A stretch of 64,000 nucleotides of DNA from Dissulfurirhabdus thermomarina (GTDB lineage: Bacteria > Desulfobacterota > Dissulfuribacteria > Dissulfuribacterales > Dissulfurirhabdaceae), in assembly GCF_012979235.1 (NCBI RefSeq), contig NZ_JAATWC010000002.1, positions 186,001-250,000 on the forward strand, in the 5' to 3' direction. The notes beneath the pieces were generated by a model. The model ran no database searches, was not told the origin of the DNA, and saw only the letters and a program-made list of their open reading frames with translations. Within the stretch, counting starts at the first letter, position 1; each line of letters begins with the position of its first letter. Made by a program: the position numbers and the translations under genes. Positions 26,137 through 44,144 of this stretch are shown here, piece by piece.

Positions 26137-27213
26137 ATGAGATCCTCCCGGCCCCCTTCCACCGAGCCCTACCGCCGCCTCGCGGCGGCGGCCGTCGCGG
26201 TCGCGGCCGTCGCCGGCGCCGCCTGGCTGCTGGTGCGCGCCCCCGGCGTGGATGCGGAGATGCTGCTCCGCCGCGTGGCTTGGCCCCTCGCCCGCTTGAC
26301 GGGGATCATGGCCCTGACCCTGGCGGCCAGCGCCGTTCTCGAGGGGTACGGCTGGTCCGCCGCGGTGGCGAGGTTCACGGCCCCCCTCATGCGGCTCGGC
26401 AACCTCGGCCACGCCGCCGGCGAGGCCTACACCGCGGCCTTCCTCTCGGGGGTGGCGGGGAGCACCCTCCTCCAGAACGCCTATGAAGAAGGGCGTATCG
26501 GACGGCGCGAGCTGATCCTGGCGGTCCTGATGAACCACGGGCTCCCTTCCTACGTGTTGCATCTCCCCCCTACCCTGGCCGTCATCCTGCCGCTGGCGGG
26601 ATCGGCCGGGCTGGTATACGTGGGGCTCACCTTCGCCGCGGCCCTGATCCGGACCTTCGGCGTGCTCCTGGCCGGCCGCCTCCTGCTGCCGCGGCCGGCG
26701 GCCGGCGGGGCGGCGCCGGCACCCGGGCAGGGGCCGGGCCACGGCCGGGGGGATCACCGCCGCGTCCGGCGTCTGCTTCACCGCTACCTCCTCCACCGGC
26801 TCCGCCGCATCACCCTCTACACGGTGCCCATCTACATGCTGGTGGTGGCGGCGCAGCAGTGGGGGGTCTTCCGGTGGCTGCAGGCGGCGGCGGCCCGGCA
26901 CTTCACCGCCGGCCTCATCCCCGTGGAGGGGGTGTCCGTGGTGGTCTTCTCCGTGGTGGCGGAGTTCGCCGCCGGGGCCGCGGCCGCCGGGGCCATGCTC
27001 CGCGAGGGGATCCTCACCCGCCCGGAGACCGTCCTTGCCCTGCTGCTCGGCAACGTCATCGCCACGCCGCTTCGTGCCCTGCGTCACCAGCTGGCCCACT
27101 ACCTCGGGGTCTTCAGGCCCGGCCGCGGCATCTTCCTCCTGGCCCTGGGCCAGGCCATCCGGGTGGCCAGCGTCCTCGCCGTGGGGCTGGCCTATTACCT
27201 TGCGACTCGATAA
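26137..27213 (+). CDS. Nucleoside-recognition (Gate) domain membrane protein
   Basis: This 358-residue polytopic protein has two related halves, each with a Gate-type helix set (WPLARLTGIMALTLAASAVLE and YTVPIYMLVVAAQQWGVF). A conserved loop EAYTAAFLSGVAGSTLLQNAY follows in the first half. A basic cytoplasmic linker lies at about residues 190-220. Relatives are annotated as nucleoside recognition or spore maturation-like proteins; the transported molecule is unknown. The large fusion protein gene follows 44 bp downstream. Confidence 0.75.
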   Translation: MRSSRPPSTEPYRRLAAAAVAVAAVAGAAWLLVRAPGVDAEMLLRRVAWPLARLTGIMALTLAASAVLEGYGWSAAVARFTAPLMRLGNLGHAAGEAYTAAFLSGVAGSTLLQNAYEEGRIGRRELILAVLMNHGLPSYVLHLPPTLAVILPLAGSAGLVYVGLTFAAALIRTFGVLLAGRLLLPRPAAGGAAPAPGQGPGHGRGDHRRVRRLLHRYLLHRLRRITLYTVPIYMLVVAAQQWGVFRWLQAAAARHFTAGLIPVEGVSVVVFSVVAEFAAGAAAAGAMLREGILTRPETVLALLLGNVIATPLRALRHQLAHYLGVFRPGRGIFLLALGQAIRVASVLAVGLAYYLATR

Positions 27214-27257
27214 GCTGGCACAAGGTGTTTTCTCCGGCTGCCCGAAAGGAAAACGGC

Positions 27258-30200
27258 ATGCGCACCTCCCGACCGAATCCCTCCTGGACCTTCCTCTTGC
27301 TCTTGCTGGCCATGCCCTGGGGAGGACCGTCCGCCCGTGCCGCCGAGCTCCCCCACGTGAGCCTGGAGGTACGGCTCCATCCCGGGGAGGCGCCCCCCGT
27401 CTCCGGGCGCGTCGATATCCGGATCCCCCCGGGCCGCCAGGTTCGGGTGGACACCGCCGGGCTTCGCCTCGGCCGCGTCCTCCTGGACGGCCGCCCCGTC
27501 CGGCCGCGGCTGGACGGCGGGGTCTTCCGGGTGCGGGCCGGCCGGGAGGACGGCCGGCTTCTCGTGACCTTCGAGGTCCCCGCGGCGGCGCTGGCGGATC
27601 CCGGCGGCCGGGACGGCATGGTCCTCCTCGGGGGCTGGTTCCCCCGCCTCCTCGACCGGGCGTGCTACCGCCTGTCCGTGGAGGTGCCGCCGGGGTTCGC
27701 GGCGGTCTCCGAGGCGGACGAGGTGGCGGAGCTGGAGGCCGACGGGCGGCGCCTGTTCCGTTTCGCCTTCCCCCACCCGCGCCGGGACGTCTCCCTGGTG
27801 GCCGGGCCCTACGTGGTGTCCAGGGACAAGGAGGGAGCGGTGGACGTGGCCTGCTATTTCTTCCCGGAAGACCGGGACCTGGCCCCCCGCTACCTGGCCA
27901 AGGCCCGCGAGGCCATCCGTTCCTATGTGGAACGCTTCGGCCCCTACCCGTACGGCCGCTTCGCCGTGGTGGAGAACCGGCGCCCGACCGGCTACGGTCT
28001 CCCCTCCTACACCTTGCTCGGCCAGGCGGTGGTCCGCCTTCCCTTCATCCCGGACACCTCCCTCCGGCACGAGATCGTCCACCAGTGGTTCGGCAACGGG
28101 GTCGGCGTCCGGGACGGCGGCGGCAACTGGTGCGAAGGGCTGGCCACCTACCTGGCCGATCACCAGGCGGCGGCGGAGAAGGGTGAAGGGGCCGCGTACC
28201 GGCACCGGCTGCTCATCGACTACGAAAGTTACGTGCACCCGCCCGCCCTTTCCCTCGCGGACTTTCGGGAGGGAAAGGATCGTGCCGCCCGGGCCGTGGG
28301 CTACGGCAAGGGCGCCATGGTGTTCCACATGCTCCGGCGTCTCGTCGGCGACGAGGCCTTCAACCGGGGGCTCCGCCGGCTGGCGGAAAAGTACCGTTTC
28401 CGGGAGGCGGGATGGGAAGACCTGGAGGCCGTCTTCGAGGAGGCGGCCGGCCGCGACCTGGGTCCCTTCTGGCGCCGGTGGATCCGGGGTCATGACCTGC
28501 CGCGCCTGGTCCTCTCCCCCCCGGAGGTCCGAAAGACCGAGGGAGGCCGCTACCGGGTGACCGCCCGTCTTCGCCAAGAGACCGGGAGGGAGCCTCCCTA
28601 CGAGATCTCCGTCCCGGTCCGGCTCGAGACCGGGGACGGGGTGATCGAGCGTACCGTTCGGTTGGCCGGGGACGAAGCCGACATCGACCTGACGGCCGAA
28701 TCGCCGCCTACCGCCCTGGTGGTGGATCCCGAGTGCGACGTCGCCCGGCACCTGTCACCCGCCGAGATCCCGCCGGTGCTTTCCCGCCTCTTCGGGGCAC
28801 GACGGCGGATGGTCGTCTCCGACGACCCCGCCCTCGGCGCCGAGCTGGCGGCCTTCCTCGGCGGGATCGTCCCGGGCCCGGTGGCTGTGAAGGCGCCGGG
28901 GGACGTGGATCCAGGGGCCCTCCCGGGACGTTCCCTCCTGGTGACAGGCATCCCCCGGGGGGCCCTGGCGCACCGCATCCCCCTCGCCCCGGCCGGTCCA
29001 GGAGAGGTGCGGGTCACGGCCTACGCCAACCCCTCCGACGGCGCCGAGGTCCTGGTGCACCTGGCCGTCGGCGAAGGTGCCCGCCTCGACGCCCTGCTGC
29101 CGCGGCTCTCCCACTACGGCCGCTACAGCACCCTGCGGTTCCGGGACGGGCGGGTCCAGGAGAAGGAGACCCTCCCCTCGGATCGGGGGCTCCGCGCCGG
29201 CTTCGCGCCCCCGGTGACCGCCGTTCCGTCCGCCGCCATGGCGTCGCTGGACGAGATCATCGATGCCGTCTCCACCCGGCGGGTGATCTTCGTGGGGGAA
29301 CGGCACGACCGGTTCGAGGATCACCTCGCCCAGGCGGCCGTGATCGAGGGCCTGGCCCGGCGGGGGCGCCCCCTGGCGGTGGGCATGGAGATGTTCCAGC
29401 AGCCCTTCCAGGCGGCCCTCGACGCCTACGTCCGCGGCGACATCGACGAACGGACCCTCCTGGAGCGAACGGAATGGTTCCGGCGGTGGGGGTTCGACTG
29501 GGTCCTCTACCGGCCCATCGTCACCTTGTGCCGCCGGATGGGCATCCCCCTGGTGGCGCTCAACGTGCCGCTGGAACTCACCAAGAAGGTCTCCAAGGGC
29601 GGCTTGGCCTCGCTGTCCGAGGCGGATCGGGCCGAGCTCCCCGAGATGGACCTCGACAACGCCGCCTACCGGCAACGCCTGCGGGAGGTCTACCGCCAGC
29701 ACCCGGAATCCTTTCACCGGCCTTTCCAGAACTTCTACGAGGCCCAGGTTCTCTGGGACGAGGGCATGGCCGAGGCCATCCACCGGTACCTGTCGGGCCA
29801 TCCCGGGGTCCAGATGGTGGTGATCGCGGGCGGCGGCCACGTGGCCTACGGCGACGGGATCCCCGCACGCGTTCGACGGCGGGGCGGCTACGAGACCGCG
29901 ACCCTCCTGGACCCCGGCGGAGAGACGCCGAGACCCGGGATGGCGGACTTCTTCCTCTTCCCCCCGGAGGTGCCGGCGCCGTTCACGGCCAAGCTCGGTG
30001 TCATCGTGGAACGGGAACGGGGAGGAATCCGTATTCGGGAAGTGGCGCCCGGCAGCCCGGCGGCCCGGGCGGGGCTCAGGCCCGGCGACCGGATCCTGGC
30101 CCTCGACGGATATGCCGTGGCGGATCTCTCCGCCCTCAAGCTGGCCCTGGCCTTCAAGCAGGAGGGAGAGTCGGCGGTGGTTCGGGTGCGGCGGGCCCTT

Positions 30201-30266
30201 CGTTTCCGGCCGGACCGGGAGGAAGAGGTCACGGTGGGCCCCTTCCGCCCCGTCTCCTACCACTGA
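27258..30266 (+). CDS. Exported fusion: M1-like peptidase, ChaN-like domain and PDZ domain
   Basis: This 1002-residue protein has a Sec signal (LLLLLAMPWG, cleavage after ARA). Residues about 150-460 form a gluzincin peptidase with HEIVH (H271, E272, H275) and a third ligand in WCEGLATY (E293); the spacing is one residue shorter than classical M1. From residue 661 a ChaN/DUF399 haem-binding domain begins (VIFVGERHDRFEDH, VGMEMFQQPFQAALDAY). The last 100 residues are a PDZ domain (APGSPAARAGLRPGDRILAL). An envelope role in peptide or haem handling is inferred. The ATG at 27258 gives the signal peptide at once. Confidence 0.88.
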   Translation: MRTSRPNPSWTFLLLLLAMPWGGPSARAAELPHVSLEVRLHPGEAPPVSGRVDIRIPPGRQVRVDTAGLRLGRVLLDGRPVRPRLDGGVFRVRAGREDGRLLVTFEVPAAALADPGGRDGMVLLGGWFPRLLDRACYRLSVEVPPGFAAVSEADEVAELEADGRRLFRFAFPHPRRDVSLVAGPYVVSRDKEGAVDVACYFFPEDRDLAPRYLAKAREAIRSYVERFGPYPYGRFAVVENRRPTGYGLPSYTLLGQAVVRLPFIPDTSLRHEIVHQWFGNGVGVRDGGGNWCEGLATYLADHQAAAEKGEGAAYRHRLLIDYESYVHPPALSLADFREGKDRAARAVGYGKGAMVFHMLRRLVGDEAFNRGLRRLAEKYRFREAGWEDLEAVFEEAAGRDLGPFWRRWIRGHDLPRLVLSPPEVRKTEGGRYRVTARLRQETGREPPYEISVPVRLETGDGVIERTVRLAGDEADIDLTAESPPTALVVDPECDVARHLSPAEIPPVLSRLFGARRRMVVSDDPALGAELAAFLGGIVPGPVAVKAPGDVDPGALPGRSLLVTGIPRGALAHRIPLAPAGPGEVRVTAYANPSDGAEVLVHLAVGEGARLDALLPRLSHYGRYSTLRFRDGRVQEKETLPSDRGLRAGFAPPVTAVPSAAMASLDEIIDAVSTRRVIFVGERHDRFEDHLAQAAVIEGLARRGRPLAVGMEMFQQPFQAALDAYVRGDIDERTLLERTEWFRRWGFDWVLYRPIVTLCRRMGIPLVALNVPLELTKKVSKGGLASLSEADRAELPEMDLDNAAYRQRLREVYRQHPESFHRPFQNFYEAQVLWDEGMAEAIHRYLSGHPGVQMVVIAGGGHVAYGDGIPARVRRRGGYETATLLDPGGETPRPGMADFFLFPPEVPAPFTAKLGVIVERERGGIRIREVAPGSPAARAGLRPGDRILALDGYAVADLSALKLALAFKQEGESAVVRVRRALRFRPDREEEVTVGPFRPVSYH

Positions 30267-30319: not shown

Positions 30320-30688
30320 TCAGGCGTGCCGGTCCAGCAGGAGCCCCTTGACGATCTCCTCGAAGGTGGTCCGGAGCTTCAGGAGCTCTTCCGGCGGGAT
30401 CTGGCGGAGGACCTCGTTGGTTTCGCGGTCGAGCACGCGGACCACCGGTTCTCCCGAGGCCTCGTCGATGTCGAAGGCGATCCGGGTATCCAAGACCCGG
30501 AGGTCCTGCCGGATCTGGTCCACCACCTGCCGCACCTCGTCCCCCCGCGGGGGCGCGGCGGCCCCCGTCTCTTCGGGCGCCGGGGCCACCTGCCGTGCAG
30601 GCGGTCGCTGGATTTCCCCCCCGGCCGGGTCCGGCCGTGGCAGGTTCAAGACCTGGCTCGTCGTGACGGCGTTCATGAAGACTTCCAT
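30320..30688 (-). CDS. flaG: Flagellar protein FlaG
   Basis: This 122-residue protein has the FlaG C-terminal core: TRIAFDIDEASGEPVVRVLD, then VLRQIPPEELLKLR. The N-terminal half is Pro/Ala-rich and disordered. FlaG-type proteins affect filament length in several bacteria. It is the last gene of the fliC-fliD-fliS-fliT-like-flaG group. Confidence 0.9.
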   Translation of the reverse strand: MEVFMNAVTTSQVLNLPRPDPAGGEIQRPPARQVAPAPEETGAAAPPRGDEVRQVVDQIRQDLRVLDTRIAFDIDEASGEPVVRVLDRETNEVLRQIPPEELLKLRTTFEEIVKGLLLDRHA

Positions 30689-30712: not shown

Positions 30713-31153
30713 CTAGACCGCGTCCTCGAAGAACCGGGCCGCAGGCGACGGGGCCCGCCGGTACCCGTTCAGGCCGCGGCGTCCGCGGCGAAGCCGTCCC
30801 ATCTCCGACCGGAGGGCCTCGCCCATCTCACGCATCCTGGACCGGAGCACCGCCTCGGCGTCCAGGACCTCCCTGAGGGCCGCCATCTCGGCGGAGAGCA
30901 CGGGGGCGAGGCACCCGTCCGGGATGTCCCCCAGGCCGCCGATGACCTCGGCCTGCCGATCGAGAAGGTCCCGGAGCCGGAGGAAGAGCCGGCGGCGGAA
31001 CTCTCGGAACGACGCCAGCGCCGCGTCCTCGGGCAGGCGATCCCCGGGGAAGGACGCCGACAGGTCCCGGAGCCGCCGGCAGGCGCCCCGGATCTCCTCG
31101 GCCAGTGCGTGAAGGGCCTTCATGTCCGTAGTCTCGTGCATCGTCGGTCTCAT
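30713..31153 (-). CDS. FliT-like helical protein downstream of fliS
   Basis: This 146-residue protein is predicted helical, with LRDLLDRQAEVIGGLG and EMAALREVLDAEAVLRSRM. The start codon overlaps the fliS stop as ATGA, so translation is probably coupled. FliT is the FliD chaperone and commonly follows fliS. Sequence alone is too divergent for certainty, so location carries most of the argument. A basic tail (GRLRRGRRGLNGYRR) is unusual. Confidence 0.65.
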   Translation of the reverse strand: MRPTMHETTDMKALHALAEEIRGACRRLRDLSASFPGDRLPEDAALASFREFRRRLFLRLRDLLDRQAEVIGGLGDIPDGCLAPVLSAEMAALREVLDAEAVLRSRMREMGEALRSEMGRLRRGRRGLNGYRRAPSPAARFFEDAV

Positions 31154-31653
31154 CCAAGCCCCAGGACGGCCCGGCGGAGATCGGCCCCGATGCCGGGTTC
31201 GCCGGGCCCGTAGCCTTCCCGCGGCGCCGGGCGCCGGGAGGGCTCCGGCCGGGCCGCTCCCGCGGCCTTGGCCTCGGCCTCCGGCATCACCGTCCGTTTC
31301 CAGGCGTCCCGAAGCTGTTCCACCCACCGGAAGACGTGGGCCACCCGCTCGGCGTCCGAATGGAGGTTCGCCTCGCTGAGCTGGGTGAGGAGATGGGCGT
31401 AGAGCCTGTCCAGGAAGACCACCATCTCGTCGTCGCGGTTGCGGTCCAGGGAGACGCTCAGCTCGGTGATGATGTCCACGGCCTTGCAGAGCCCCTCTCC
31501 CTTCGCCGCCACGTCGCCGTCGCGGATGGCGGCCTCGGCCTTTCGAAGCGCCCGGAGGCAGGCCTCGTAGAGCATGAGCACCAGCTTCTTCGGATCGCTC
31601 GTGGAGATGGCCTGGACCTTCCGGTAGGCGCTGTAGGGATTTGCGGGTGTCAT
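31150..31653 (-). CDS. fliS: Flagellin export chaperone FliS
   Basis: This 167-residue protein opens with NPYSAYRKVQAISTSDPKKL and LVLMLYEACLRALRKAEAAI, the classic FliS start. The four-helix core ends by about residue 125, and a Pro/Arg/Gly-rich 40-residue tail is extra compared with the usual 130-residue family. FliS binds the flagellin C-terminus to keep it unfolded before export. Confidence 0.95.
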   Translation of the reverse strand: MTPANPYSAYRKVQAISTSDPKKLVLMLYEACLRALRKAEAAIRDGDVAAKGEGLCKAVDIITELSVSLDRNRDDEMVVFLDRLYAHLLTQLSEANLHSDAERVAHVFRWVEQLRDAWKRTVMPEAEAKAAGAARPEPSRRPAPREGYGPGEPGIGADLRRAVLGLG

Positions 31654-31695: not shown

Positions 31696-33063
31696 TCACT
31701 TTCCGGACCAGAGGCTGTTCAGGCTCTCGAACTGCGTTGCAAGGTACGTCCCCTGGCTTTGAAGCTCCGCCATAATCTCGTCCATCTGGGCGAACTGGCG
31801 GGCCAGGGTCTCGTAACGGCGGTCCAGGCGCTCCGTGGCCTGGGCGATGTCTTCTTCCAGCCGGTCGACGGCCGACTGGACCCGGTCGATCTCGCTGGCG
31901 ATGAGCCCCCCGGAGGGCTTCGTGATGTCGCGGAGGCGGTCGTTCAAGGCGACCGCCAGGCCGTCCACGTCCCCCTCGCCCACGAAGAGCTTCTTCACGT
32001 CGTCGAGGTTCGAGGCGAGGGCCGCGTCCAGGGTGGCTTCATCCACGGTCACGGTCCCGTTCCGGTTGAAGGTGAGACCGATCGCGCCGAAGCTGTCGTA
32101 GGCGCCGCCGAGGCCCTCGATGGGGGAGACCAGGGTCTGGTTGATGTCGCTCACCACGTCCCGGAAGACGCCGACGCCGTTCAAGGAGCCCCCGATCCCG
32201 GTGTCGAAGTCGTAGCCGGAATTGGCGGAGATCTCCTGCACCACGTCGTTGTAGGCGTCGACCAGGCCCATGATCTTGGACTTGACCGTATCGGTGTCCG
32301 CCGTCACGCGCACGGTGCTCGTCCCCTCTCCCTGGAGGGTGAGGGTCACGCCGGCGATGACGTCGGAGATCGTGTTGGTCCCCCGCTGGTAGGTGATCCC
32401 GTCGATGGTGACCAGGGCGTCCAGCGTACCCGCGGCCTGGACCTCGCTCAAGGTCAAGGTCGAACCGTTGGTGTCGATGGTGATGGCATTGTCCTCGCCG
32501 GTTTCGTCCGAGGTGAGGACCAGATGATAGGCCGTTCCGGACCCGGTGCCGTCGTCCATGACCGTGGCGGTGACACCGGGGTTGTCTTCGTCGTCGTTGA
32601 TGGCGTCGGCCAGCTGCTGGAGCGTCATCCCCGGCGTGAGGGTGAGGGTGGTCTGCGTGCCGTCCACGGTGTAGGTGAAACTGCCCGAGGCGGTGACCAC
32701 GCTGGTGGTGGCCGAGGCCACCCCCGACGACTGCCAGGAATTCCGCTTGGCGAGTCGCGAGACCGTCACGGTATGGGACCCGGCGCTCGCCGTCTCGTCG
32801 GCCGAGGCCCCGAGGACCTCCGCCTGGCTGGATGTGACGGACTTGGCGCCGAAGGTGCCCTCCAGGGTGAGCTCCAGCGCCAGGTTCTTCACCGTGAGCA
32901 ACTGGCTGTTCACCTTGCGGAACTCGACGAGCTGGTCCTCGTACTGGAGCTTGCGGGTCCGCATCCCCGTGATGGGGACCTGGTCCGCGGCCTTCAGCTT
33001 GTCGAGCACGCCCTGGAGGTCGATCCCGGAACCGATGCCGAGGGAGGTGATGGTGCCGGCCAT
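31696..33063 (-). CDS. fliD: Flagellar filament cap protein FliD
   Basis: This 455-residue protein has the FliD N-domain (LGIGSGIDLQGVLDKL, with ITGMRTRKLQYEDQL) and C-domain (GLTFNRNGTVTVDEATLDAA, then RYETLARQFAQMDEIMAELQ). It caps the filament tip and catalyses flagellin insertion. It lies 74 bp after fliC, with a hairpin in the gap that may lower its expression relative to flagellin. Confidence 0.96.
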   Translation of the reverse strand: MAGTITSLGIGSGIDLQGVLDKLKAADQVPITGMRTRKLQYEDQLVEFRKVNSQLLTVKNLALELTLEGTFGAKSVTSSQAEVLGASADETASAGSHTVTVSRLAKRNSWQSSGVASATTSVVTASGSFTYTVDGTQTTLTLTPGMTLQQLADAINDDEDNPGVTATVMDDGTGSGTAYHLVLTSDETGEDNAITIDTNGSTLTLSEVQAAGTLDALVTIDGITYQRGTNTISDVIAGVTLTLQGEGTSTVRVTADTDTVKSKIMGLVDAYNDVVQEISANSGYDFDTGIGGSLNGVGVFRDVVSDINQTLVSPIEGLGGAYDSFGAIGLTFNRNGTVTVDEATLDAALASNLDDVKKLFVGEGDVDGLAVALNDRLRDITKPSGGLIASEIDRVQSAVDRLEEDIAQATERLDRRYETLARQFAQMDEIMAELQSQGTYLATQFESLNSLWSGK

Positions 33064-33137: not shown

Positions 33138-34610
33138 TTACTGCAGCAGCTGCAGCACCGTCTGGGCCGTCACGTTGGCCTGGGCCAGCGCGAAGGTGCC
33201 GGACTGCGCCAGGATCTGGAACTTGGCGAAGGTGCTGCTCTCCTCCGCGAAGTCCACGTCCCGGATCTGCGACTCGGCCGCCTGGACGTTCACGCGGGTG
33301 ACGCCCAGGTTCCGGACGGTGGCCTCGAGCTGGTTCTGCACGGAACCGATGTCGCCCCGGATGGCATCGAGCTGCTTGAGGGCGGCGTCGGCGATCTTGA
33401 TGGCCCACTCCGCGGCGTCACGCTCCGAGGCATGGTAGAAGTTGCCGTTGGCGTCCCGGAGCGTGTTGGTCACGTCGATGGCGCTGAGGCTGGTCTTGTC
33501 GAAGTCCAGGGTGACCTGGGCGTCGGCGAAGCCGTAGCTCGACGCGCTGCCGAGGGTGAAGTTCTGGTCGCCGGACAGGGTGATCTTTCCGCCCGTGGTC
33601 CCGTTGGAGAGGCCGCTGGCGGTGATGTTGCCGCCCGTGTCGGTGCCGATCACGATGTCGCTCCCGTCGAGGGAGACGAGGCGCAGCTTGCCCGGGTTGT
33701 CGTCGTCGAACTCCGCGATGACGTTGGTCTTGTCGGAGAGGGCGTTGATGGCGTTCCGCAGGGCGCTGTCCGCATCGCCCGCCTGGGTCTGGACCGTGGC
33801 CACGGTCCAGCCGTTGATCTGGAGGCCGCTCACGGTGCCGGCGCTCACACTGATGTTGTCGAGCTCGGTGAAGGCGGTGGCCTCGACCCCGGTCTTGGCG
33901 GACAAGGAGTTGATGGCCTGGGCGATGGCCCACGCGGACCCCGCGCTGTGGGCGGTGGTGTTGACGCCGGGGGTGGAGTCCTCGGCGCTGGCGCCCACGG
34001 TGTAGGTCACGTCCTGGTTGCCTTCCTTCACCGTGATGGTGAGGCCGCTCACCGAGGTGGAGCCGCCGGTCACGGCGCTGCCCTGGGTGGTGGCGAAGAG
34101 GCCGATGTTGTCCACGGTGGCGCTCTGGATGGAGAAGCTCGTGATCTCGTAGGCGTAGGCGCCGATGTGGAGGGCCTTTCCGGCGAAGCTGCCGTCCAGG
34201 AGCTTCCGGCCGTTGAAGGCCGTGGTCTTGGCGATGGCGTCGGCCTCCTGGAGCAGGCGCGAGATGTCGTTCTGGATGGCCTGGCGCGAGTCGCTGCTCT
34301 GGAGGTCGCTGGCCGCCTGGATGGCCTTGGTCCGGATGGTGTTGACGATGTTGATGTACTCTTCCAGGGCGCCGTCCGCGGTCTGGACCACGGCGATGCC
34401 GTCGTTGGCGTTCCGGATGGCCTGGGCGATGCCGAGGGCCTGGGACTTCAGGGAGTCGGCGATGGCCATGCCGGAGGCGTCGTCCGCGGCGCCGTTGATC
34501 CGGAGCCCGGAAGAGAGCCGGCGCAGGGACTTGTTCAGGGAGTTGTTGGTGTTGACCAGCTGCCGGTGGGCATCGATGGCCGAGATGTTGGTGTTGATGC
34601 GAAGACTCAT
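33138..34610 (-). CDS. fliC: Flagellin
   Basis: This 490-residue flagellin has conserved D0/D1 ends: SLRINTNISAIDAHRQL with LRRLSSGLRINGAADDASG, and at the C-terminus RDVDFAEESSTFAKFQIL ending TAQTVLQLLQ. The central 250 residues are Ser/Thr/Asn-rich and variable, offering glycosylation sites. AAGGAGG stands 8 nt before the ATG. A sigma-28 promoter lies 140 bp upstream. Upstream on the same strand lie two large glycosyltransferase genes. Confidence 0.97.
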   Translation of the reverse strand: MSLRINTNISAIDAHRQLVNTNNSLNKSLRRLSSGLRINGAADDASGMAIADSLKSQALGIAQAIRNANDGIAVVQTADGALEEYINIVNTIRTKAIQAASDLQSSDSRQAIQNDISRLLQEADAIAKTTAFNGRKLLDGSFAGKALHIGAYAYEITSFSIQSATVDNIGLFATTQGSAVTGGSTSVSGLTITVKEGNQDVTYTVGASAEDSTPGVNTTAHSAGSAWAIAQAINSLSAKTGVEATAFTELDNISVSAGTVSGLQINGWTVATVQTQAGDADSALRNAINALSDKTNVIAEFDDDNPGKLRLVSLDGSDIVIGTDTGGNITASGLSNGTTGGKITLSGDQNFTLGSASSYGFADAQVTLDFDKTSLSAIDVTNTLRDANGNFYHASERDAAEWAIKIADAALKQLDAIRGDIGSVQNQLEATVRNLGVTRVNVQAAESQIRDVDFAEESSTFAKFQILAQSGTFALAQANVTAQTVLQLLQ

Positions 34611-34748
34611 GCGAGAAACCTCCTTGTTCTCTTGTTTTTCGTCGGGGCCGGGCATCCGTGCCCGTCCGACACGCGGATATGGTGTCGACCTGCCCTACAT
34701 GCGTCTTCCCTCCTTTCCGGGCGGAATCGGCGGCACTCGTCGTTTGCT

Positions 34749-34776
34749 TTATCGGCGCCGCCTCCCCCGGACTTGA
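34749..34776 (-). promoter_or_regulatory. Sigma-28 (FliA) promoter of fliC
   Basis: On the minus strand TCAAGTCC (34776-34769), a 12-bp spacer and GCCGATAA (34756-34749) match the flagellar class-III consensus; the -10 box is perfect. It lies between the glycosyltransferase stop at 34787 and the fliC start, leaving a leader of about 130 nt with a small hairpin near 34659-34675. Confidence 0.85.
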
Positions 34777-34786
34777 AAACGGCCCC

Positions 34787-36097
34787 CTACCCCCCGCCCG
34801 CCCCGGCCTTGATCGCCTGGAGCGATGCCTCCAGGGCGCGGAGATCCGCCTGGATCCGCTCGTGGAACTCCGGGGCCGCGTCGGCCACCTCCTGGAAGAG
34901 GAGGAGCCCCTCCCGCAGCCGCCCCAGGGCGATGTGGGCCTTGGCCATCCGGTAGCGGGCCTCGTGGTGGGCCGGCGAGACATCGAGGACCTTGCGGTAC
35001 CATCCCGCCGCCGCCTCGAAGTCCTGGCGGGCCTCCATGAGGCGGCCGAGGTTCATCATGGCGATGGCGAGGTCGGGCCGGCGTTCCAGGGCCCGCAGGT
35101 AGGCCCGCTCCCCCTCGTCGAAGCGCCCGAGGGAGACGTGGCAGACCCCCAGGAGGTTCAGGAAGTGCGGGTCGGCCGCCACCTCTTCCGGAGCGCCTTC
35201 GGCCACCTCCAGGGCTTCGGCGAAGGCCCGGCGCTTGAGGAGGCAGGAACACAGCGTCCGCCTGGCCTCCGGGTAGGCGGGGTCCAGCCGGAGGCATTCC
35301 CGCAGGAGCCGCTCCGCCTCCCCGTAGCGTTCCAGCCGGAAGGCCTGGGAGCCCAGCTCGAAGTGCGCCTTGGGATCATCCGGCCGCTCCGCCAGCTTTT
35401 CCATGCCGAGTTCCAAGTAGTGCTCTTCCTTCTCGCGCAGCACCTTCCCGGCCAGGGGACCGAAGTGGTGGACCGGCACGTCCAGCACCGGGTAGGCGGC
35501 CCCCATGCGGTCCAGGGCGGGTTCCACCAGCTCGTGGACCCGCCCCTCGAACCGGATCTCCGGGAGGTTCCGGAAGAGCCGGACCTTGATCGAGGGCCAG
35601 TATCCGAACCGGTCCGGGTTGAGGTCCGGGTAGCGGCCGTCGTCGGCCGTCCAGCCCACGATGCCGACCTCCCGGGTGTAGTTCCGGGTGAGCAGGCTGT
35701 AGGCCCGTTCCGGGGCCGCGGGAAGGAAGCGGCGCAGCCGCGCCCCGTCCCGGGGGTGGATCACCTCGTCGGCATCCACCACCAGGATCCAGCGCCCGGA
35801 CGCCGCCGCGAGGGAGGCGTTCCGCGCCTGGCTGAAATCCCCGGCCCAAGGGACCTCCAGGACCTTCCGGGCCAGCCGCCGGGCGATATCCGGGGTCCGG
35901 TCGGTGGAACCGGTATCGGCCACCACGATCTCGTCCACGAAGGCGGCGAGGGCCTCGAGGCAGGCCGGGAGGTAGGCCTCTTCGTCCTTCGCGATGAGGC
36001 AGGCGGAGAGCAGGGGCGCGCCTCCTGCCGGGGCCGGCGTGCCGGACCGGCCGCGGCGCCGGGCCTTCCCGGTCTTTTTCGTGCGTCGCTTCGCCAT
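34787..36097 (-). CDS. GT2 glycosyltransferase with C-terminal TPR repeats
   Basis: This 436-residue protein has a family 2 glycosyltransferase domain: SACLIAKDEEAYLPACLEAL, VVADTGSTDRT and the DxD motif VVDADEV (residues 108-110). From about residue 240 it has TPR repeats (DPKAHFELGSQAFRLERYGE and following). This is the SunS/O-GlcNAc-type layout in which TPRs recruit protein substrates. Location directly before fliC suggests a role in flagellin glycosylation, by inference. It begins 6 bp after the stop of the giant gene. Confidence 0.88.
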   Translation of the reverse strand: MAKRRTKKTGKARRRGRSGTPAPAGGAPLLSACLIAKDEEAYLPACLEALAAFVDEIVVADTGSTDRTPDIARRLARKVLEVPWAGDFSQARNASLAAASGRWILVVDADEVIHPRDGARLRRFLPAAPERAYSLLTRNYTREVGIVGWTADDGRYPDLNPDRFGYWPSIKVRLFRNLPEIRFEGRVHELVEPALDRMGAAYPVLDVPVHHFGPLAGKVLREKEEHYLELGMEKLAERPDDPKAHFELGSQAFRLERYGEAERLLRECLRLDPAYPEARRTLCSCLLKRRAFAEALEVAEGAPEEVAADPHFLNLLGVCHVSLGRFDEGERAYLRALERRPDLAIAMMNLGRLMEARQDFEAAAGWYRKVLDVSPAHHEARYRMAKAHIALGRLREGLLLFQEVADAAPEFHERIQADLRALEASLQAIKAGAGGG

Positions 36098-36103
36098 CTC
36101 CCC

Positions 36104-39100
36104 CTAGGCCTCCCGCGCGCTCCGGCCGCCCATCTCCCCGTAGTGATGGATCACCGCCTGGAGGGTCGCGGTGGGGATGCCGCGGTCCCGGAGGGCCTCG
36201 TCGATGTGCTCGGGGCCGCCGGGGAGGCCCTCCAGGAGGGTCCGGGGCACCAAGCGGGCGGCCTCGTCGGGCCGCCACCCGGAGCCGGCCTCCTCCAGGG
36301 GATAACGGCCGTCCCCCGGCTGGAAATCCGGCCGGCCGTCCGGGCGGTCGAGGTACCTCCGGACCGGGAGCACGTAGGCGGCCCCCGGTTTCCCCGTGCC
36401 GTTCCGGCAGGCCTTTCGAACGGCCGGGTGGTCCTGGGGAGAGAGCACCTCGTCCCCGCGGAGGAGGAGGAGCCACCGGCCCCGGGCGGCCCTGGCCGCC
36501 GCCGCGAGGGGTCCCTCCCCCTCCCCCGGCCGCACCACCCGTGCGCCCAGGGCCTCGGCGATCTCGAGGCATCGCCCCGAGGCCCCGGCGTCCACCACCA
36601 GGGTCTCGTCCGCGAGCCCCTTGCCGCTCATCAGGGACGGCCCGAGGGTGGCCTCGTGGCCGCCGGCGAAGACCGCCAGGGTGAGGCCCACCGGCCCGCC
36701 CTCCCCGGTCTCGGCCTCCCGGGCCGCCTGCTGGAGCCCGCGGGCCACGGCCAGGGCCTCGTCGTCCATCCCGAAGAGGAGGAGGCCCTCGGCGGCGGCC
36801 TCCGCCGCCTCCCGGGCGCGGCCCGCCTCCGCCAGGGCCCGTACCAGGAGGTAACGAAGGGCCTTGTGGTGGGGATGGAGGGCCACCGCCTCGGACACGG
36901 TCCCGGCGGCCGAGGCCAGGTCCCCGGTGGCGTCCATGAGATCCTGGAAGTTGGCGAGGATGTCCGGGTGGGTCGGATCGAGCATGAAGGCCCGTTCGAT
37001 GAGGGCCCGGCCCTCGTCGCGCCGGTCCGAGGACCAGAGCAGGGTCCCCAGGTTGGAATGGGCGAGCCCGAAGCCCGGGTCTGCGGCGATGGCCCGGCGG
37101 AAGCAGTCCTCCGCCTCCGCCGCGTCGCCGGAGCGGTAGGCCGCCAGCCCCTTGATGTTCCAGGCCGGGGCGTTGTCCGGGTCTTCCGAGAGGACCCGGT
37201 CGGCGATCTCGCCGGCCTCCTCCGGGCGCTCGAGCCCTTCGAGCGCGGCGGCCCGGTGCAGGAGGAAGTCCGGCCGCGCGGCCACGGCCGCCGGCAGGGC
37301 GTCCAGGATCTCCAGGGCCTGGCGGTGAAGGCCGCCCTGCACGAGGAGGCCGCAGAGGCGGTCGTAGAGGATCGGGTCGTCCGGGACCCGGTCCACCGCT
37401 TCCTGGAGCCGTTCCAGGGCCGCCTTGAGGTCGCCCCTGGCGGCCAGGAACTCGGCCCTTTCCACGGCCGCGTTACAGTAGGCGGCCCGGCCCTGGGGTT
37501 CGGCGAGGTTCACCCGCTCCCACTTCTCCCGGAAGCGGTCCCGGTTCCCCGCCATGGACGAGGCGTAGTCGACGCGGTTGCCGGCGAAGGAACGGCTGCC
37601 GTAATGGTGGATGAAGACGTCACCGGCGATGAGGTTCCGGTATCCGGCCACGGCCGCCCGGAGGCAGAAATCGTCGTCCTCGAAGTTGCCCGTGCCGAAC
37701 CGCTCGTCCAGGGGCCCGATCCGCTCCACCAGCTCCCGGCGGAAGAGCATGCAGAAGCCCACGATCCGGCGGCAGGGGATCCGCCGGTGCCGGTGGGCCT
37801 CCCGGAAGGCCGCGGCATAGGCCGGCAGCTCCTCCAGGGTACGGTACCCCGGCTCCGGCACCCGCTGGGGGCCGCTGATCTCGTTGGTCATGGGTCCCAC
37901 GATGCCCACGTCGGGCGCGGATTCGAGGCACTCGAGGAGCCCCGAGAGCCACCCCTCGGTGACCACCACGTCGTTGTTGAGGAGCAGGATGGTGCGTCCC
38001 CTCGCGGCCTGGATCCCCTGGTTGCATCCCTTGGAGAAGCCGAGGTTCTTCTCGTTGGCCACGAGGCGCCAGCGGGGGTGCCGCTTGACGCGCCGGGCGA
38101 GCCACTTCCGGGTCCCGTCGGTGGAGCCGTTGTCCACGAAGATGACCTCGTGGGGCTCCGGTGTGTGGGCCTCGAGGCTCTCCACGCACCGCTTGGTGTA
38201 CCTGAGCTGGTTATAGGTGAGGATGACGATGGAGACCAGGTCCTCCGGCACCGGGCCGCCCTCCCCGGCGGGCTCCGCCGGGGCGGGCTTCCCATCCGGC
38301 GGGCGGTAGTCGGCGGCGGCCCCCGGGGCGGCCGGCCGGAGGGTCCCGTCCCCTGATACCACGAGGTCCGGTTCCACCCGGCCGAGCCACTTCTCGTGGA
38401 GGCGGGCGATGTTCTCGGCGGCCCGGGAGAAACGCTCCGGCCCGCTTTGCGACTCGTGGTGGACCACCACGCTCTCGGGCTGGTAGACCAGGCGGCGTCC
38501 GGTTTGCCGGAGCTTGAAGCAGAGGTCCACGTCCTCGTAGCCGTTCCAGTATCCCTCGTCGAAGCCGCCCACCTCCTCGAAGGCCGAGCGCCGGACCAGG
38601 AGACAGGCCGCGGTGAGGGCCTGGCAGGTCCGGGGTCGGTTCGCCTCGGGGAAGTCGGCCGGCAGCCCGCGGAAGACGTGTTGCGGCAGCAGCGGATCCC
38701 CCGCGCGTTCGTCCCGGGTGACCGCCACGCCGGCGTGCTGGAGTGTCCCGTTCGGGTAGAGGAGCTTGGCTCCCACCGCCGCCACGCCGGGGTCCCGGTC
38801 GAGGACGCGCATCAGGGGTTCGAGCCACCCCGCCTGGACCTCTGTGTCGTTGTTCAGGAAGAGGATCCGGTCGGCCGAGGCGGCCGCGGCCCCCTGGTTG
38901 CACGCCCGGGCGAAGCCGAGGTTCTCCGCGTTTCTGAGGATGACGAGCCCTTCCTGCTCGCCGGGCGAGAGGACGTCCGTCACCGGCGGATCGGACCCGT
39001 TGTCCACCACCACCACCTCGCATCGCCCCATGTCCGTGTGGCGCCGGAGCGCGGCGAGGCACCGGCCGAGGTCCTCGTGGCGGTTGAAGGTGGGGATGAC

Positions 39101-42100
39101 GATGGCGACCCCGGCCGTCCCCTGGTCCTCGCCCAGGGCCTCCCGGATCACGCGGACGATCTGCCCGGAATGGGTCGAGACGAGGTGGGCGGCAAGGACG
39201 TCGCGCCGGGCCGCGGCGCCCATGCGGCGGCGGAGTTCGGCATCGGCGACGAGTCGTTCCAGGGCCGAGACCCAGGCCCCGGTCTCGTTGGGGACGAGGC
39301 AGCCGTTTTCGCCGTCCCGGACGTAGGGACGGTAGGGCGGGAGGTCGGAATAGACGCCGGGGATGGCGCAGGCCGAGTACTCGAGCCATTTGATCGGACT
39401 CTTGGCCCGGTTGAAGGGGTTGTCCGCCAGGGGCACCAGGGCCACGTCCACGCCCAGCGACTGGAACTTCTCGGCGTAGCGGAGGTAGCCCGCCTCGAAG
39501 TCCACGTATTCCGCGCCGGCGATCCCGAGGAGATTCGGGGTCACGCACCCCATGAAGACGAAGGTCACCTCGCCCTCGTGCCGGCCGGCGACCTCGAGGA
39601 TGGCCCGCTCCACGATCTCGAGATCCGCCCGGTGCGTGGGCGTCCCCGCATATCCGACGCGGACCGGTCCTTCCCGGCGGGCGGGCCGGGGCCGCCAGGC
39701 CTTCCCGTCCACCCGGTTCGGCACCACGCGGACGTTCGCGTTGAAACGGGCGAGGCGCTCGCCCAGGAGGGGAGTCGAGACGGTGACCACCCGGGCCCGG
39801 CGAAGGACGTCCTCCACGTAGGGGAGGTGGGCCTGGACCTCGCGGTGGTGGGGGTTCGACTCGGGGAGGTCGAAGAAGAGGTCGTCGATGTCGTAGATGA
39901 CGGGCTTTCCGGAGGCGAAGACCCAGTCGAGGACGGGTTTCGACCCCTCGGAGGGAAAGAGCCGCTGGACGATCACCGCGTCCGCCGCCTCGAGGATGTC
40001 CCTGGATATGCGGACCTCGTTTCCCTGCCGGAGCATCGCCCAGCCGGCCTCGACCTGCCACGCGTGCGCCTGGAACGGAGAGACGATCCGGATGTGGCTG
40101 CAGGCCTCCTCGCGCCCGCAGTTCGAGAGCACGGCCACGCGCGGCCGCTCCGGGCGCGCCGCCCTGGGGGGGCGGCGGCCGCCGGCCGCCGCCGTGGTGC
40201 GCGTCTCCGCCATCCCGTACTGGGGCACGTAGCCGAGGGAGGCCCCGCCCGGCGCCTCCCGGTCCGCGGACGCCTCCCCGCTTTCGTCCGGGATCCGGTA
40301 GGGCGCCACGCGCCCGGCGTCGGTGGGGACGAAGCGCCCGTCCCGGAGGATCACGGCGTCGTAGCAGGCCTTGTCCCGCCAGCGCTCCACCAGCCGCTTG
40401 AGATTCTGGCCCTCCTTCGCGAAGCGTTCGGCCCCGCTCTGGGATTCCTTGTGGACCACCACGCTCCGAGGCTCGTAGACCAGCCGGTGCCCCGCCTCCC
40501 CCAACCGGAGGCAGAGGTCCACGTCCTCGAACCCGTTCCAGTACCCCTCGTCGAACCCGCCCGCCGCCTCGAAGGCCTCCCGGCGGATCGCCAGGCAGGC
40601 CGCCGTGAGCACCTGGTAGGTCCGGGCCACGTTGGCGTCCGGGAAATCCCCGGGCAGCCCGTAGTAGTTGTGGATGGGCGAGAGGCGGTGCTCCCGCTGG
40701 TGGTTGTCGACCACGAGGACCCCGGCGTGCTGGAGGGTCCCTTCGGGGAAGAGGAGCTTCGCCCCCACCGCCGCCACGGAGGGGTCGGCGTCGAGGACCT
40801 CCAGGAGCGGGGAGAGCCACCCGGGCCCCGGCTCCGTGTCGTTGTTCAGGAAGAGGACGTAGGGGGCGGAGGCCGCCTTCGCTCCCTGGTTGCACGCCCG
40901 GGCGAAACCGAGGTTCCGCTCGTTCCGGATCACCTTGAAAAGCGGCTCGCCGCTCAGGGTTGCCAGGTAGTCCGGGGTGGGATCCGTGGAGGCGTTGTCC
41001 ACCACGATGACCTCGGCGCGCACCTCCCGGCTGTGGCGCCGGAGGTGGTCCAGGCATTGGATGGTGAGCTCCAGCCGGTTGAAGACCGGGATGACGATGG
41101 AGACCTCGGGCCGATCGTCGTGGTGGCACAGCCCCGGGTCGATGACCTCCCGGGCGGCCTCGACGAGGTCGCCGGAGACCTCGAGAAACGCTCCGAGCCG
41201 CCGGAGGACCCCTTCCCGCCCGGGCCCGAGGAGCGCTTCGTAGTGGAGGTCGAAGGCGGGATAGCCCTCCCGGTGCCGGTCGGCCCGGGTGTCGTACACC
41301 TCCACAAGATCCAGCCCCTTTCCCACGGGCAGTCGGTGGGTCCGCTTGAGGGACCGGGCCACGGAGAGGGGGTCGCGCCGGATCCGGACCACCCGGAGCC
41401 GGTCCCGGCCGAGGACCGCTTCGAAGGCCGGCTTCCAGGCCGGCAGCGTGAGGCAGAACCGGGGATCCTTCAGGAAGAACCGCCGTCCGCCGAAGCGGCG
41501 CAGGATCGCCCCCTGGCGCTCCCGCACCGTTTCTCCCGCCGCGGCCACGGCGGCCTCTTCCGGCGGCTGGTGCCAACTGCCCCCGGCACGCCGCAGGATC
41601 TCGTCGTTGAGTTCCACCACGGCCCGCCACTCGAAGTAGCCCTTGGCGTTGAACTCGTCGGCCGCGAGCAGCTCGTCGGGCGGCCCGGGGTCGAAGCCCG
41701 CCCGAGCGAGGAGGTTCCCCACCATCGAGGTACCGGACCGGTGCATGCCGAGGACGAGAACGGCGACGGGGCCCTCCCCCGCCGCCGGGTCCGCGTCTTC
41801 TCCCGGCCGGTCCCCGTCTCCGGCCAGCACCCAGGGCGAGCCCTCGAGGTCCGAGACCTCGTCCGCGACCCGGGCCGTCACGGTGTCGCCCGGGACGGGC
41901 CGCGTCCCCTCGGGGAATGTGAACCGGAACCCGACGTTGCGGCGCTCCAGGCCGGGGACCCCGGCGAGGTCCTCCCTGTCGATGTCCGCCCGGACCGTCC
42001 CGGCCGGGCGGCCGTTGACCCGGATCTCCACCTCCACCACGCGGTCGTGATGGACACCCGCCGCCCAGCCGATGACGTGGTCCGCCGTGACCGCCTCCAC

Positions 42101-42754
42101 CCGGCCCCGGGCCTTGGTGATGCGGGTGAGATCCAGGTACTGGGGCCGGTCGGGCGAGACGAAGTCCAGGACCTTTCGGACGGCGTCGGGGGTGGGCGCC
42201 AGGCCGCAGAACCCGGCGAGTGCCTCGACCAGCTCTTCCTTGAACCGGAGGGCCTTTTCGTACGAGACCAGCAGAGCGGGCGGCCGGAACCGCTCCAAGA
42301 AATCGAGGACCTGGCCGTACTCTCGGTGATTCCGGCGCATGTTGGCCAGGATGTCGGACTTCATGGAGATCCGGTTCCGGTTCGAGATGGAGAAGATATC
42401 CTTGAACGTAATGATGTAATGCGGACGGCGGAGGATGCCGTGGGTCCGTTCCAGGTAGCCCACTGCGGAGGGCCGCTTCCATCCCCAGGCCTCGTGCTCC
42501 CGGTCGTAGGCGGCGACGATGCGGCGGGCGGCGGCTCCACCGTCGGCATTCCAGCCATCCATGGCCCGGCTGAGGTCCTGGTCCTCGAAGACCGGGTCGA
42601 CGGCCGAGGTCCCCATGAAGAGCCCGAGGTGATGGAGGGCTCCCGCCACCATGGACGTTCCGCTCCGGGCCGGCCCCACCACCACGATGGTCCTCGGCTG
42701 TGCGGCCTCGGGCTCGCCCATGACGAAGAGCCCCTTGTTCACCAGTTGTTCCAT
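36104..42754 (-). CDS. Giant sulfotransferase/multi-glycosyltransferase/TPR protein
   Basis: About 2216 residues from an ATG at 42754 with a strong GGGGGAGGA site 9 nt upstream; the frame is open to 43105. Domains in order: sulfotransferase-like P-loop (GPARSGTS, residues 27-34), beta-sandwich, second sulfotransferase-like P-loop (GMHRSGTS, about 335), GT2 (551-771), GT4-like (870-1206), GT2 (1214-1433), GT2 (1505-1731), TPR repeats (1755-1988), and a degenerate GT2-like end. Two GT2 units share LGFARACNQGA and FLNNDTE, so they arose by duplication. Its place before fliC suggests assembly of a flagellin glycan; donor sugars are unknown. Confidence 0.85.
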   Translation of the reverse strand: MEQLVNKGLFVMGEPEAAQPRTIVVVGPARSGTSMVAGALHHLGLFMGTSAVDPVFEDQDLSRAMDGWNADGGAAARRIVAAYDREHEAWGWKRPSAVGYLERTHGILRRPHYIITFKDIFSISNRNRISMKSDILANMRRNHREYGQVLDFLERFRPPALLVSYEKALRFKEELVEALAGFCGLAPTPDAVRKVLDFVSPDRPQYLDLTRITKARGRVEAVTADHVIGWAAGVHHDRVVEVEIRVNGRPAGTVRADIDREDLAGVPGLERRNVGFRFTFPEGTRPVPGDTVTARVADEVSDLEGSPWVLAGDGDRPGEDADPAAGEGPVAVLVLGMHRSGTSMVGNLLARAGFDPGPPDELLAADEFNAKGYFEWRAVVELNDEILRRAGGSWHQPPEEAAVAAAGETVRERQGAILRRFGGRRFFLKDPRFCLTLPAWKPAFEAVLGRDRLRVVRIRRDPLSVARSLKRTHRLPVGKGLDLVEVYDTRADRHREGYPAFDLHYEALLGPGREGVLRRLGAFLEVSGDLVEAAREVIDPGLCHHDDRPEVSIVIPVFNRLELTIQCLDHLRRHSREVRAEVIVVDNASTDPTPDYLATLSGEPLFKVIRNERNLGFARACNQGAKAASAPYVLFLNNDTEPGPGWLSPLLEVLDADPSVAAVGAKLLFPEGTLQHAGVLVVDNHQREHRLSPIHNYYGLPGDFPDANVARTYQVLTAACLAIRREAFEAAGGFDEGYWNGFEDVDLCLRLGEAGHRLVYEPRSVVVHKESQSGAERFAKEGQNLKRLVERWRDKACYDAVILRDGRFVPTDAGRVAPYRIPDESGEASADREAPGGASLGYVPQYGMAETRTTAAAGGRRPPRAARPERPRVAVLSNCGREEACSHIRIVSPFQAHAWQVEAGWAMLRQGNEVRISRDILEAADAVIVQRLFPSEGSKPVLDWVFASGKPVIYDIDDLFFDLPESNPHHREVQAHLPYVEDVLRRARVVTVSTPLLGERLARFNANVRVVPNRVDGKAWRPRPARREGPVRVGYAGTPTHRADLEIVERAILEVAGRHEGEVTFVFMGCVTPNLLGIAGAEYVDFEAGYLRYAEKFQSLGVDVALVPLADNPFNRAKSPIKWLEYSACAIPGVYSDLPPYRPYVRDGENGCLVPNETGAWVSALERLVADAELRRRMGAAARRDVLAAHLVSTHSGQIVRVIREALGEDQGTAGVAIVIPTFNRHEDLGRCLAALRRHTDMGRCEVVVVDNGSDPPVTDVLSPGEQEGLVILRNAENLGFARACNQGAAAASADRILFLNNDTEVQAGWLEPLMRVLDRDPGVAAVGAKLLYPNGTLQHAGVAVTRDERAGDPLLPQHVFRGLPADFPEANRPRTCQALTAACLLVRRSAFEEVGGFDEGYWNGYEDVDLCFKLRQTGRRLVYQPESVVVHHESQSGPERFSRAAENIARLHEKWLGRVEPDLVVSGDGTLRPAAPGAAADYRPPDGKPAPAEPAGEGGPVPEDLVSIVILTYNQLRYTKRCVESLEAHTPEPHEVIFVDNGSTDGTRKWLARRVKRHPRWRLVANEKNLGFSKGCNQGIQAARGRTILLLNNDVVVTEGWLSGLLECLESAPDVGIVGPMTNEISGPQRVPEPGYRTLEELPAYAAAFREAHRHRRIPCRRIVGFCMLFRRELVERIGPLDERFGTGNFEDDDFCLRAAVAGYRNLIAGDVFIHHYGSRSFAGNRVDYASSMAGNRDRFREKWERVNLAEPQGRAAYCNAAVERAEFLAARGDLKAALERLQEAVDRVPDDPILYDRLCGLLVQGGLHRQALEILDALPAAVAARPDFLLHRAAALEGLERPEEAGEIADRVLSEDPDNAPAWNIKGLAAYRSGDAAEAEDCFRRAIAADPGFGLAHSNLGTLLWSSDRRDEGRALIERAFMLDPTHPDILANFQDLMDATGDLASAAGTVSEAVALHPHHKALRYLLVRALAEAGRAREAAEAAAEGLLLFGMDDEALAVARGLQQAAREAETGEGGPVGLTLAVFAGGHEATLGPSLMSGKGLADETLVVDAGASGRCLEIAEALGARVVRPGEGEGPLAAAARAARGRWLLLLRGDEVLSPQDHPAVRKACRNGTGKPGAAYVLPVRRYLDRPDGRPDFQPGDGRYPLEEAGSGWRPDEAARLVPRTLLEGLPGGPEHIDEALRDRGIPTATLQAVIHHYGEMGGRSAREA

Positions 42755-42794
42755 GGCATCCGATCCTCCCCCGCCGTCCCCCGCTGGGATCTCC

Positions 42795-43655
42795 CTATCG
42801 TTCCCTTCCTTCCGGTAGACGAGGACGTCCTGGAAGAAGAGCCCCGGGCGTTCCTTCCAGTTGCCGGGATAGTGGGCCAGGCGCCGGAGCGGGGTCTTCG
42901 CCTCCAGCATCCCGAGGCCTTCCGGCGTGAGCCCGACGGCCTCCTCCGGGACCCGGGCCCACCCGGGGCAGAGCCATTGGCCGGAGGGCGAGCAGGGCCG
43001 GTCGAAGATCCAGTGCGCCTGGGAGGTATTGTGGTACCGGCCCTTGGCCGCCCGCCGCCGGGCGAGCGAGGCCTCGTAGTCCGCGTCGAGCAGGAAGGCG
43101 GTCACGATGAAGATCCCTCCCTCCCTCCGCCAGCACCCGGGCCGCCTCTCGGAAGTAGAAGACGGCGTCCGCCTCGTTCATGTGGGTCCAGACGGAAAGG
43201 GCCGTCACCAGGTCCTGGGAGCCGTCCGGGATGTCCCAGGGCGTCCGTTCCCGTATCTCTTCCGGCGTGTAAGCCGGGTTTCGGGCCTCGAGGTGGACGA
43301 AGCGGAAGTGGGGCTCCCGGTAGTGGCCCTTGCAGAACTCGACGTCCCGCCGGCTGACGTCCATCCCCACGTAGAGGCCACCCTCCTGGACGTAGGGCTC
43401 GCAGGCGATGGCCAGGAGCCCGGTCCCGCAGCCCACGTCCAGGACCTTCAGCCCCGGCCGGCACGCCGTGAAGTGGGCCACGAGGGCCTGGAAGAGCCCG
43501 ATGACGTGGGCCCACTCGGCGTAGGCCACCTTCCCGCCCCGGCGGTCGTCGAAGTCGGGGACGAGGCGCAGGTTCGCGGTCCGCAGTACCCGCGCCTTGT
43601 CCATGGGGCCGAATCGGGCGTCCAGTTCCCGGTAGGCCTGGTCGTCGCTGGTCAT
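42795..43655 (-). pseudogene. SAM methyltransferase disrupted by a +4 frameshift in a GGGA repeat
   Basis: From ATG 43655 the frame encodes a class I methyltransferase: GLKVLDVGCGTGLLAIACE, GMDVSRRDVEFCKGHY and LVTALSVWTHMNEADAV. After RVLAEGG the frame turns into Arg/Pro-rich nonsense and stops at 42795. The true continuation (IFIVTAFLLDADYEASLARR to GLFFQDVLVYRK) is in the frame open at 42755-43105, the frame of the giant gene. The break lies at three tandem GGGA units near 43116-43128; two units would restore the frame and fuse it to the giant protein. A real mutation, phase switch or sequencing error are all possible. Confidence 0.75.
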
Positions 43656-44144
43656 GGCCCGCTTTTTCCTCCCCGTCCGGCCCCGGCGACGGCGGCATGC
43701 CCGCCGGGCCCCGTCCCGAATTTCAGCCACCTCGTCCCTGGTCCGATAGAAGGCATGTGGGGGTCGTCGACATGCTCTTGGAACCTGTAAGAACTGCAAA
43801 TTCCATGCTAGGAAACGGACAGGCGGACCGGGAGGCCAAGGAACTTCCCACCCTCCGGCGGCACGGCGTCCTCATGGGGCCGAATCGGGCGTCCAGTTCC
43901 CGGTAGGCCTGGTCGTCGCTGGTCATGGCCCGCTTTTTCCTCCCCGTCCGGCCCCGGCGACGGCGGCATGCCCGCCGGGCCCCGTCCCGAATTTCAGCCA
44001 CCTCGTCCCTGGTCCGATAGAAGGCATGTGGGGGTCGTCGACATGCTCTTGGAACCTGTAAGAACCGCAAATTCCATGCTAGGAAACGGACAGGCGGACC
44101 GGGAGGCCAAGGAACTTCCCACCCTCCGGCGGCACGGCGTCCTC
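43602..44144. repeat. Recent 271-bp tandem duplication
   Basis: Bases 43602-43873 recur at 43873-44144 with a 271-bp period and only one difference (T at 43795, C at 44066). The unit holds the first codons of the methyltransferase, the divergent intergenic region, and the first codons of the HD-GYP gene. As a result a second methyltransferase start (43926) and a truncated second HD-GYP N-terminus (ending 43906) exist. Confidence 0.95.

Follow-up and report, generated by a model that had tools for sequence, protein, structure and literature searches.

Most of what is known about flagellin glycosylation comes from pathogens and from systems of separate enzymes, and motility-associated factors (Maf) are known flagellin glycosyltransferases. 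In the type B locus of Clostridioides difficile, GT2-family enzymes act in sequence and one of them carries a methyltransferase domain (PMC5207246). In Caulobacter crescentus, FlmG is a cytoplasmic flagellin O-glycosyltransferase whose TPR domain binds flagellin (PMC7591256). Our search of the open-access literature found no paper on giant TPR-glycosyltransferase enzymes for flagellin and no report of a sulfated flagellar glycan in bacteria; the sulfated case that it returned is archaeal. Here we analyze a 64,000-nucleotide stretch of DNA (the window) from Dissulfurirhabdus thermomarina SH388T, a thermophilic, sulfur-disproportionating vent bacterium of the Dissulfuribacterales (PMC7463578).

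Results

The cluster under study lies on the minus strand of the window, in the order methyltransferase, giant multi-domain gene, GT2-TPR gene (gene 2), fliC, fliD, fliS and flaG. The giant open reading frame (ORF; 36104..43105, GTG start) encodes 2333 amino acids. Pfam domain matches in this region were far above chance, and on the giant ORF they comprised three strong PF00535 stretches, PF13692/PF00534 (GT4), TPRs and PF13469 at residues 449–643 (E = 1.7e-8). From its N-terminal side, the protein contains a sulfotransferase-fold P-loop domain (ST1; 42071..42748; GPARSGTS at residue 144); a linker domain (41786..42070), which had no homologue among the relatives' loci collected; a sulfotransferase domain (ST2; 41111..41785; GMHRSGTS at 453, KDPR at 546 and RRDPLSVARS at 576); the GT-A glycosyltransferase GT2a (40358..41110; PF00535, NNDTE and FEDVD intact); a GT4-type (GT-B) glycosyltransferase domain (39131..40075; PF13692, PF00534, PF13524); GT2b (38381..39130; motifs intact); GT2c (37496..38272); TPR repeats (36776..37495; PF14559, PF07719 and others); and GT2d (36107..36748; residues 2120–2333). 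The GT-A motifs (NND and ED) are kept in GT2a, GT2b and GT2c and lost in GT2d, which in an alignment has DAGASG and RGDE where relatives show DTGSTD and DADE. Neither the giant protein nor the GT2-TPR protein has a clear transmembrane segment. A preliminary description, made from the letters of the window, had listed two P-loops, three GT2 units, a GT4-like unit, TPRs and a degenerate GT2 end; all of these modules were recovered in place on the minus strand. It had also spoken of two giant genes, but only the first of these is giant; the GT2-TPR gene encodes 436 amino acids.

The idea that near-identical GT2 modules arose by internal duplication held for GT2a and GT2b but not for the other two. 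GT2a and GT2b share 61.6% protein identity and 74% DNA identity and are sisters (support 0.956) in a phylogeny of some 110 homologues. Their duplication is nonetheless old, because the closest copies outside are 60–62% identical, almost matching the similarity of the pair. GT2c, by contrast, is only 32–35% identical to GT2a and GT2b and falls in a distinct clade, with 65–68% identity to its counterparts elsewhere, of which several, including deltaproteobacterial ones, are flagellin-linked. GT2d instead matches the GT2 domain of gene 2 (33% identity) and occupies the place of an intact copy in relatives. These identities and the tree rule out, for GT2c and GT2d, a recent duplication as the common origin of all GT2 modules. 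In one relative (L147), a single polypeptide with the order GT2c-TPR-degenerate GT2-TPR-intact GT2 resembles the giant and gene 2 fused.

Gene 2 (34787..36097) encodes a GT2 domain (PF00535, 3.6e-18; DTGSTD, DADE and HHFG intact) and TPRs, and the next gene is fliC (33138..34655, likely start at 34610; PF00669, 1.6e-43, and PF00700), in agreement with the preliminary description. The fliC product is the stronger of two Flagellin_N matches in a search of the entire genome. Every gene on the fliC side of the locus is flagellar: the filament cap gene fliD (31696..33063; PF07195), the flagellin chaperone gene fliS (31150..31653; PF02561) and flaG (30320..30688; PF03646). Glycosyltransferase genes thus adjoin fliC, as in a flagellin glycosylation island, and the arrangement is conserved in relatives. 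A sigma-28-like box (CAAG...GCCGATAA; 34749..34775, minus strand, two mismatches) lies upstream of fliC. Such boxes are frequent in the window (8 matches at ≤3 mismatches, with 6.2 expected), and it is mainly the position of this one that suggests that fliC has its own late promoter; co-transcription of the giant and fliC is therefore not certain. Sigma-54 boxes showed no clear excess over chance. Elsewhere in the window, away from the fliC cluster, there is a gene for the anti-sigma-28 factor FlgM (PF04316, 17896–18198), and a long plus-strand ORF at 26859–30266 carries peptidase M1, ChaN-like and PDZ domains.

Loci for surface polysaccharides often encode GT2, GT4 and sulfotransferase domains, and the operon might accordingly make a capsule, an O-antigen or an exopolysaccharide and adjoin fliC by chance. 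We examined this possibility in relatives from one scan of named genomes, which gave 79 loci selected by GT2 patterns and not phylogenetically independent. The search for flagellins used the FliC of the window plus added queries, to catch short flagellins beside FlaF/FlbT. Flagellin was present in 36 of these 79 loci and any queried flagellar gene in 44; where at least 5 kb was available on both flanks of the giant, the corresponding counts were 26/37 and 28/37. Flagellated genomes of a few Mb have roughly two flagellin-domain matches each, and we estimate that chance linkage would amount to a percent or two. The flagellin-linked relatives include Deltaproteobacteria, Geobacter relatives, Nitrospirae, Ignavibacteria, Bacteroidetes, Verrucomicrobia, Neomarinimicrobiota and Acidimicrobiia. 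Within the same phylum, a distant genome (L050) shares the order giant, GT2-TPR, fliC, flaG, fliD, fliS. Over about 710 amino acids, the GT2c-TPR-GT2 part is colinear at 43–45% with proteins that Syntrophus and Nitrospirae metagenome-assembled genomes (MAGs) encode next to FlaF/FlbT/flagellin.

We reject a chance neighborhood with capsule genes on these counts, and the flagellin-linked glycan assembly module is real, with the corrections to its first description given here. Some support for a polysaccharide product comes from isolated GT2a-type and ST-type giants found away from flagellin and from another D. thermomarina sulfotransferase in a polysaccharide locus beside an APS kinase, but the GT2c-TPR-GT2 part does not show the pattern, relatives far from flagella and tied to capsule genes, that the preliminary description would have required for its refutation. 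With linkage in many phyla, genes on the fliC side that are all flagellar and a Maf swap at the same slot, we regard a capsule, O-antigen or exopolysaccharide operon as very improbable. The swap is seen in genomes of the same order, where the slot beside fliC holds Maf in many and glycosyltransferase giants in others. In D. thermomarina itself, Maf was rejected as the flagellin enzyme: no Maf (PF20157) was found in the genome, and Pfam returned no Maf_flag10 or MptE-like domain in the window proteins. Other relatives (L117, L122, L130, L133, L136, L144, L148, L155) have GT2c-TPR-GT2 giants, the longest of about 4000 amino acids, beside FlaF, FlbT and short flagellins, and such giants look like a family of flagellin glycosyltransferases that is new to the literature searched.

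The preliminary description had wondered whether the two P-loop domains serve sulfate transfer or bind another donor, and had proposed structure prediction as a check. Searching the PDB with the sequence of the ST region returned nothing significant, so folds were compared instead, and both domains were predicted to adopt a sulfotransferase fold. ST2 exceeds the PF13469 (Sulfotransfer_3) cut-off (29.6 bits; cut-off 27), and its donor motifs, the 3'-phosphate motif included, are preserved in the alignment (P-loop, KDPR and RDP...S). Its AF2 model (pLDDT 89.4) had as its best two Foldseek matches human TPST2 with PAP (1.1e-4) and the Synechococcus olefin synthase sulfotransferase 4gox (3.1e-4); at a TM score of about 0.5, these support the fold class but not the substrate. 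For ST1 (residues 120–345), the model (pLDDT 74.7), whose alignment took in ST2-type sequences, gave top matches that were nearly all sulfotransferases, led by 4gox, TPST2 and TPST1. ST1 falls below the PF13469 cut-off, however (19.9 bits), and in the alignment its 3'-phosphate motif is altered (FKDIFSISNR): the usual Arg is replaced by Lys and the usual Ser is lost.

A donor would be at hand, since the gene content indicates that the genome can make PAPS. It encodes an APS kinase (7.6e-55), near polysaccharide genes and another sulfotransferase, and has four PF13469 matches over the cut-off, ST2 included; no PAPS reductase was found above the cut-off in the genome, and the D. thermomarina genome paper does not report assimilatory sulfate reduction as present (PMC7463578). 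Taken together, these points make sulfation the likely use of PAPS in this organism. At L079:9441-18067, this genome groups an APS kinase gene with genes for nucleotide-sugar enzymes and for a sulfotransferase, so D. thermomarina probably sulfates a surface polysaccharide as well.

Sulfotransferase domains also occur at other flagellar loci and beside chemotaxis genes. A Neomarinimicrobiota locus (L186) runs from FlgI to FliW and continues with ST2-GT2a-GT4-GT2c-TPR, GT2, TPR and flagellins; one in Verrucomicrobiales, Verrucomicrobiota (L131), has FliW, CsrA, an ST-TPR-methyltransferase protein and a giant; and in Chloroflexi (L166) a single protein with ST, three GT2, TPR and ST adjoins che (chemotaxis) genes. 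Two loci from the phylum of D. thermomarina, L203 and L204, the latter from the same order, have a sulfotransferase inside the fliC cluster. Sulfotransferases nevertheless appear to be rare at flagella, because 80 other flagellin neighborhoods sampled in the phylum included 14 with a glycosyltransferase, 14 with Maf and none with an ST domain, counts that are underestimates given simple searches of low sensitivity, single-query for ST. This rarity, together with the sub-threshold score and altered motif of ST1, fits an alternative in which FliC is glycosylated as proposed below but ST1 and ST2 are inactive, play a structural part or have a different donor or acceptor as ligand. Set against the retained motifs and Pfam score of ST2, the fold matches of both domains and the supply of PAPS, we consider this alternative possible, at somewhat longer odds than sulfation. 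Sulfate on the flagellar glycan is plausible from the fold and the donor supply, and we give a sulfated modification an even chance.

Directly upstream of the giant, an ORF that the preliminary description had not listed (42795..43655) encodes a class I SAM-dependent methyltransferase (PF13649, 4.6e-13; PF08241, 3.9e-12), with its core from 43655 to about 43125. GC3 periodicity switches frame near 43140–43200, and in three-frame translation the reading frame changes between this ORF and the giant ORF at a GGGA tandem repeat (43113..43127). By sequence character and frame, residues 1–107 of the giant (42785..43105) are the apparent C-terminal part of the methyltransferase. The two pieces had no significant homologue among the relatives' loci collected, so it is from sequence and frame only that the methyltransferase domain appears to continue into the giant ORF as a fusion. 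Methyltransferase domains lie within the same polypeptide in four relatives (L049, L074, L130 and L133). Because the domain seems to run into the N-terminus of the giant, with the frame switching at the repeat, the GTG at 43105 probably does not mark the genuine start. A base-calling error at the break is unlikely, given the 1384-fold mean coverage of the SH388T genome (PMC7463578). The GGGA repeat could be a slippage site, though it has three units only. A near-perfect tandem duplication (43602–44144; offset 271 bp, one mismatch), either real or an assembly artefact, spans the intergenic region that separates the methyltransferase gene from a gene for an HD-domain response regulator, along with the first methyltransferase codons.

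With its frame broken, the methyltransferase part may be inactive in SH388T, and one could read the frame change, the lost motifs of GT2d and the tandem duplication at the 5' end as signs of decay or lack of function in the giant gene. The frame is open over 7 kb with a strong overall GC3 bias, however, the motifs of GT2a, GT2b and GT2c are intact, and a degenerate tandem GT2 copy is also present in the relative L147; we therefore consider decay unlikely.

Discussion

Our results support a model in which the giant works with the GT2-TPR protein as a cytoplasmic, TPR-guided assembly line. Before its export, FliC would receive from this line an O-linked oligosaccharide decorated with methyl and probably sulfate groups, a reading to which we assign a probability of roughly 0.7. 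That the system modifies flagellin in some way is more secure, and we hold it to be very probable. Since relatives in many phyla lie beside flagellin, the most likely role of the giant is to make a flagellar sugar chain with decorations that possibly include sulfate. By analogy with FlmG, the TPR repeats would hold flagellin. The GT2 domain of gene 2 would add the first sugar to Ser/Thr of FliC. GT2a, GT4, GT2b and GT2c would then each add one sugar, a stepwise extension suggested by the domains, and the methyltransferase would methylate a sugar, by analogy with the methylation proposed in C. difficile type B. ST2, and perhaps ST1, may transfer sulfate from PAPS to the chain, as fold and donor supply would allow. 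GT2d would be a decayed duplicate of the GT2 domain of gene 2 and is probably not catalytic.

More tentatively, and at slightly less than even odds, we propose that this bacterial flagellar filament carries an oligosaccharide, both sulfated and methylated, that one giant TPR-guided protein makes, and that this protein is a member of a family of flagellin-linked glycosyltransferase arrays that crosses phyla and has captured sulfotransferase modules several times. If so, a one-protein assembly line, common to many phyla and exchanged with Maf at one slot, would offer a predictable handle on the flagellar glycans of environmental bacteria.

Several described systems share features with this model. 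The archaellins of Halobacterium salinarum make up a motility filament whose sulfated glycan is synthesized with sulfotransferases (PMC11980604, PMC6591318), but that system is archaeal and N-linked, on an unrelated filament. The flagellin glycosylation islands of Geobacillus and Enterobacteriaceae place variable glycosyltransferase and methyltransferase genes beside the flagellin gene, although neither paper mentions a sulfotransferase or TPR (PMC5109656, PMC4875605). Maf occupies the same slot beside fliC in genomes of the same order but belongs to a different family (PF20157/PF01973). The C. difficile type B locus (GT1, GT2, GT3; PMC5207246, PMC5207245) resembles that of D. thermomarina, by domain content, in having GT2-family enzymes and a methyltransferase beside fliC, and its finished glycan bears a sulfonic acid group. 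There, however, the sulfur comes in as taurine, within a peptidyl-amide cap. The enzymes are encoded by separate genes, we saw no fusion to TPR or ST described for them, and a sulfotransferase goes unmentioned in the structure paper. FlmG shares TPRs with both the giant and the gene 2 protein, and several relatives of the giant lie beside flaF/flbT; FlmG, however, attaches pseudaminic acid with a single GT-B catalytic domain, whereas D. thermomarina has several GT-A (GT2) domains and one GT4.
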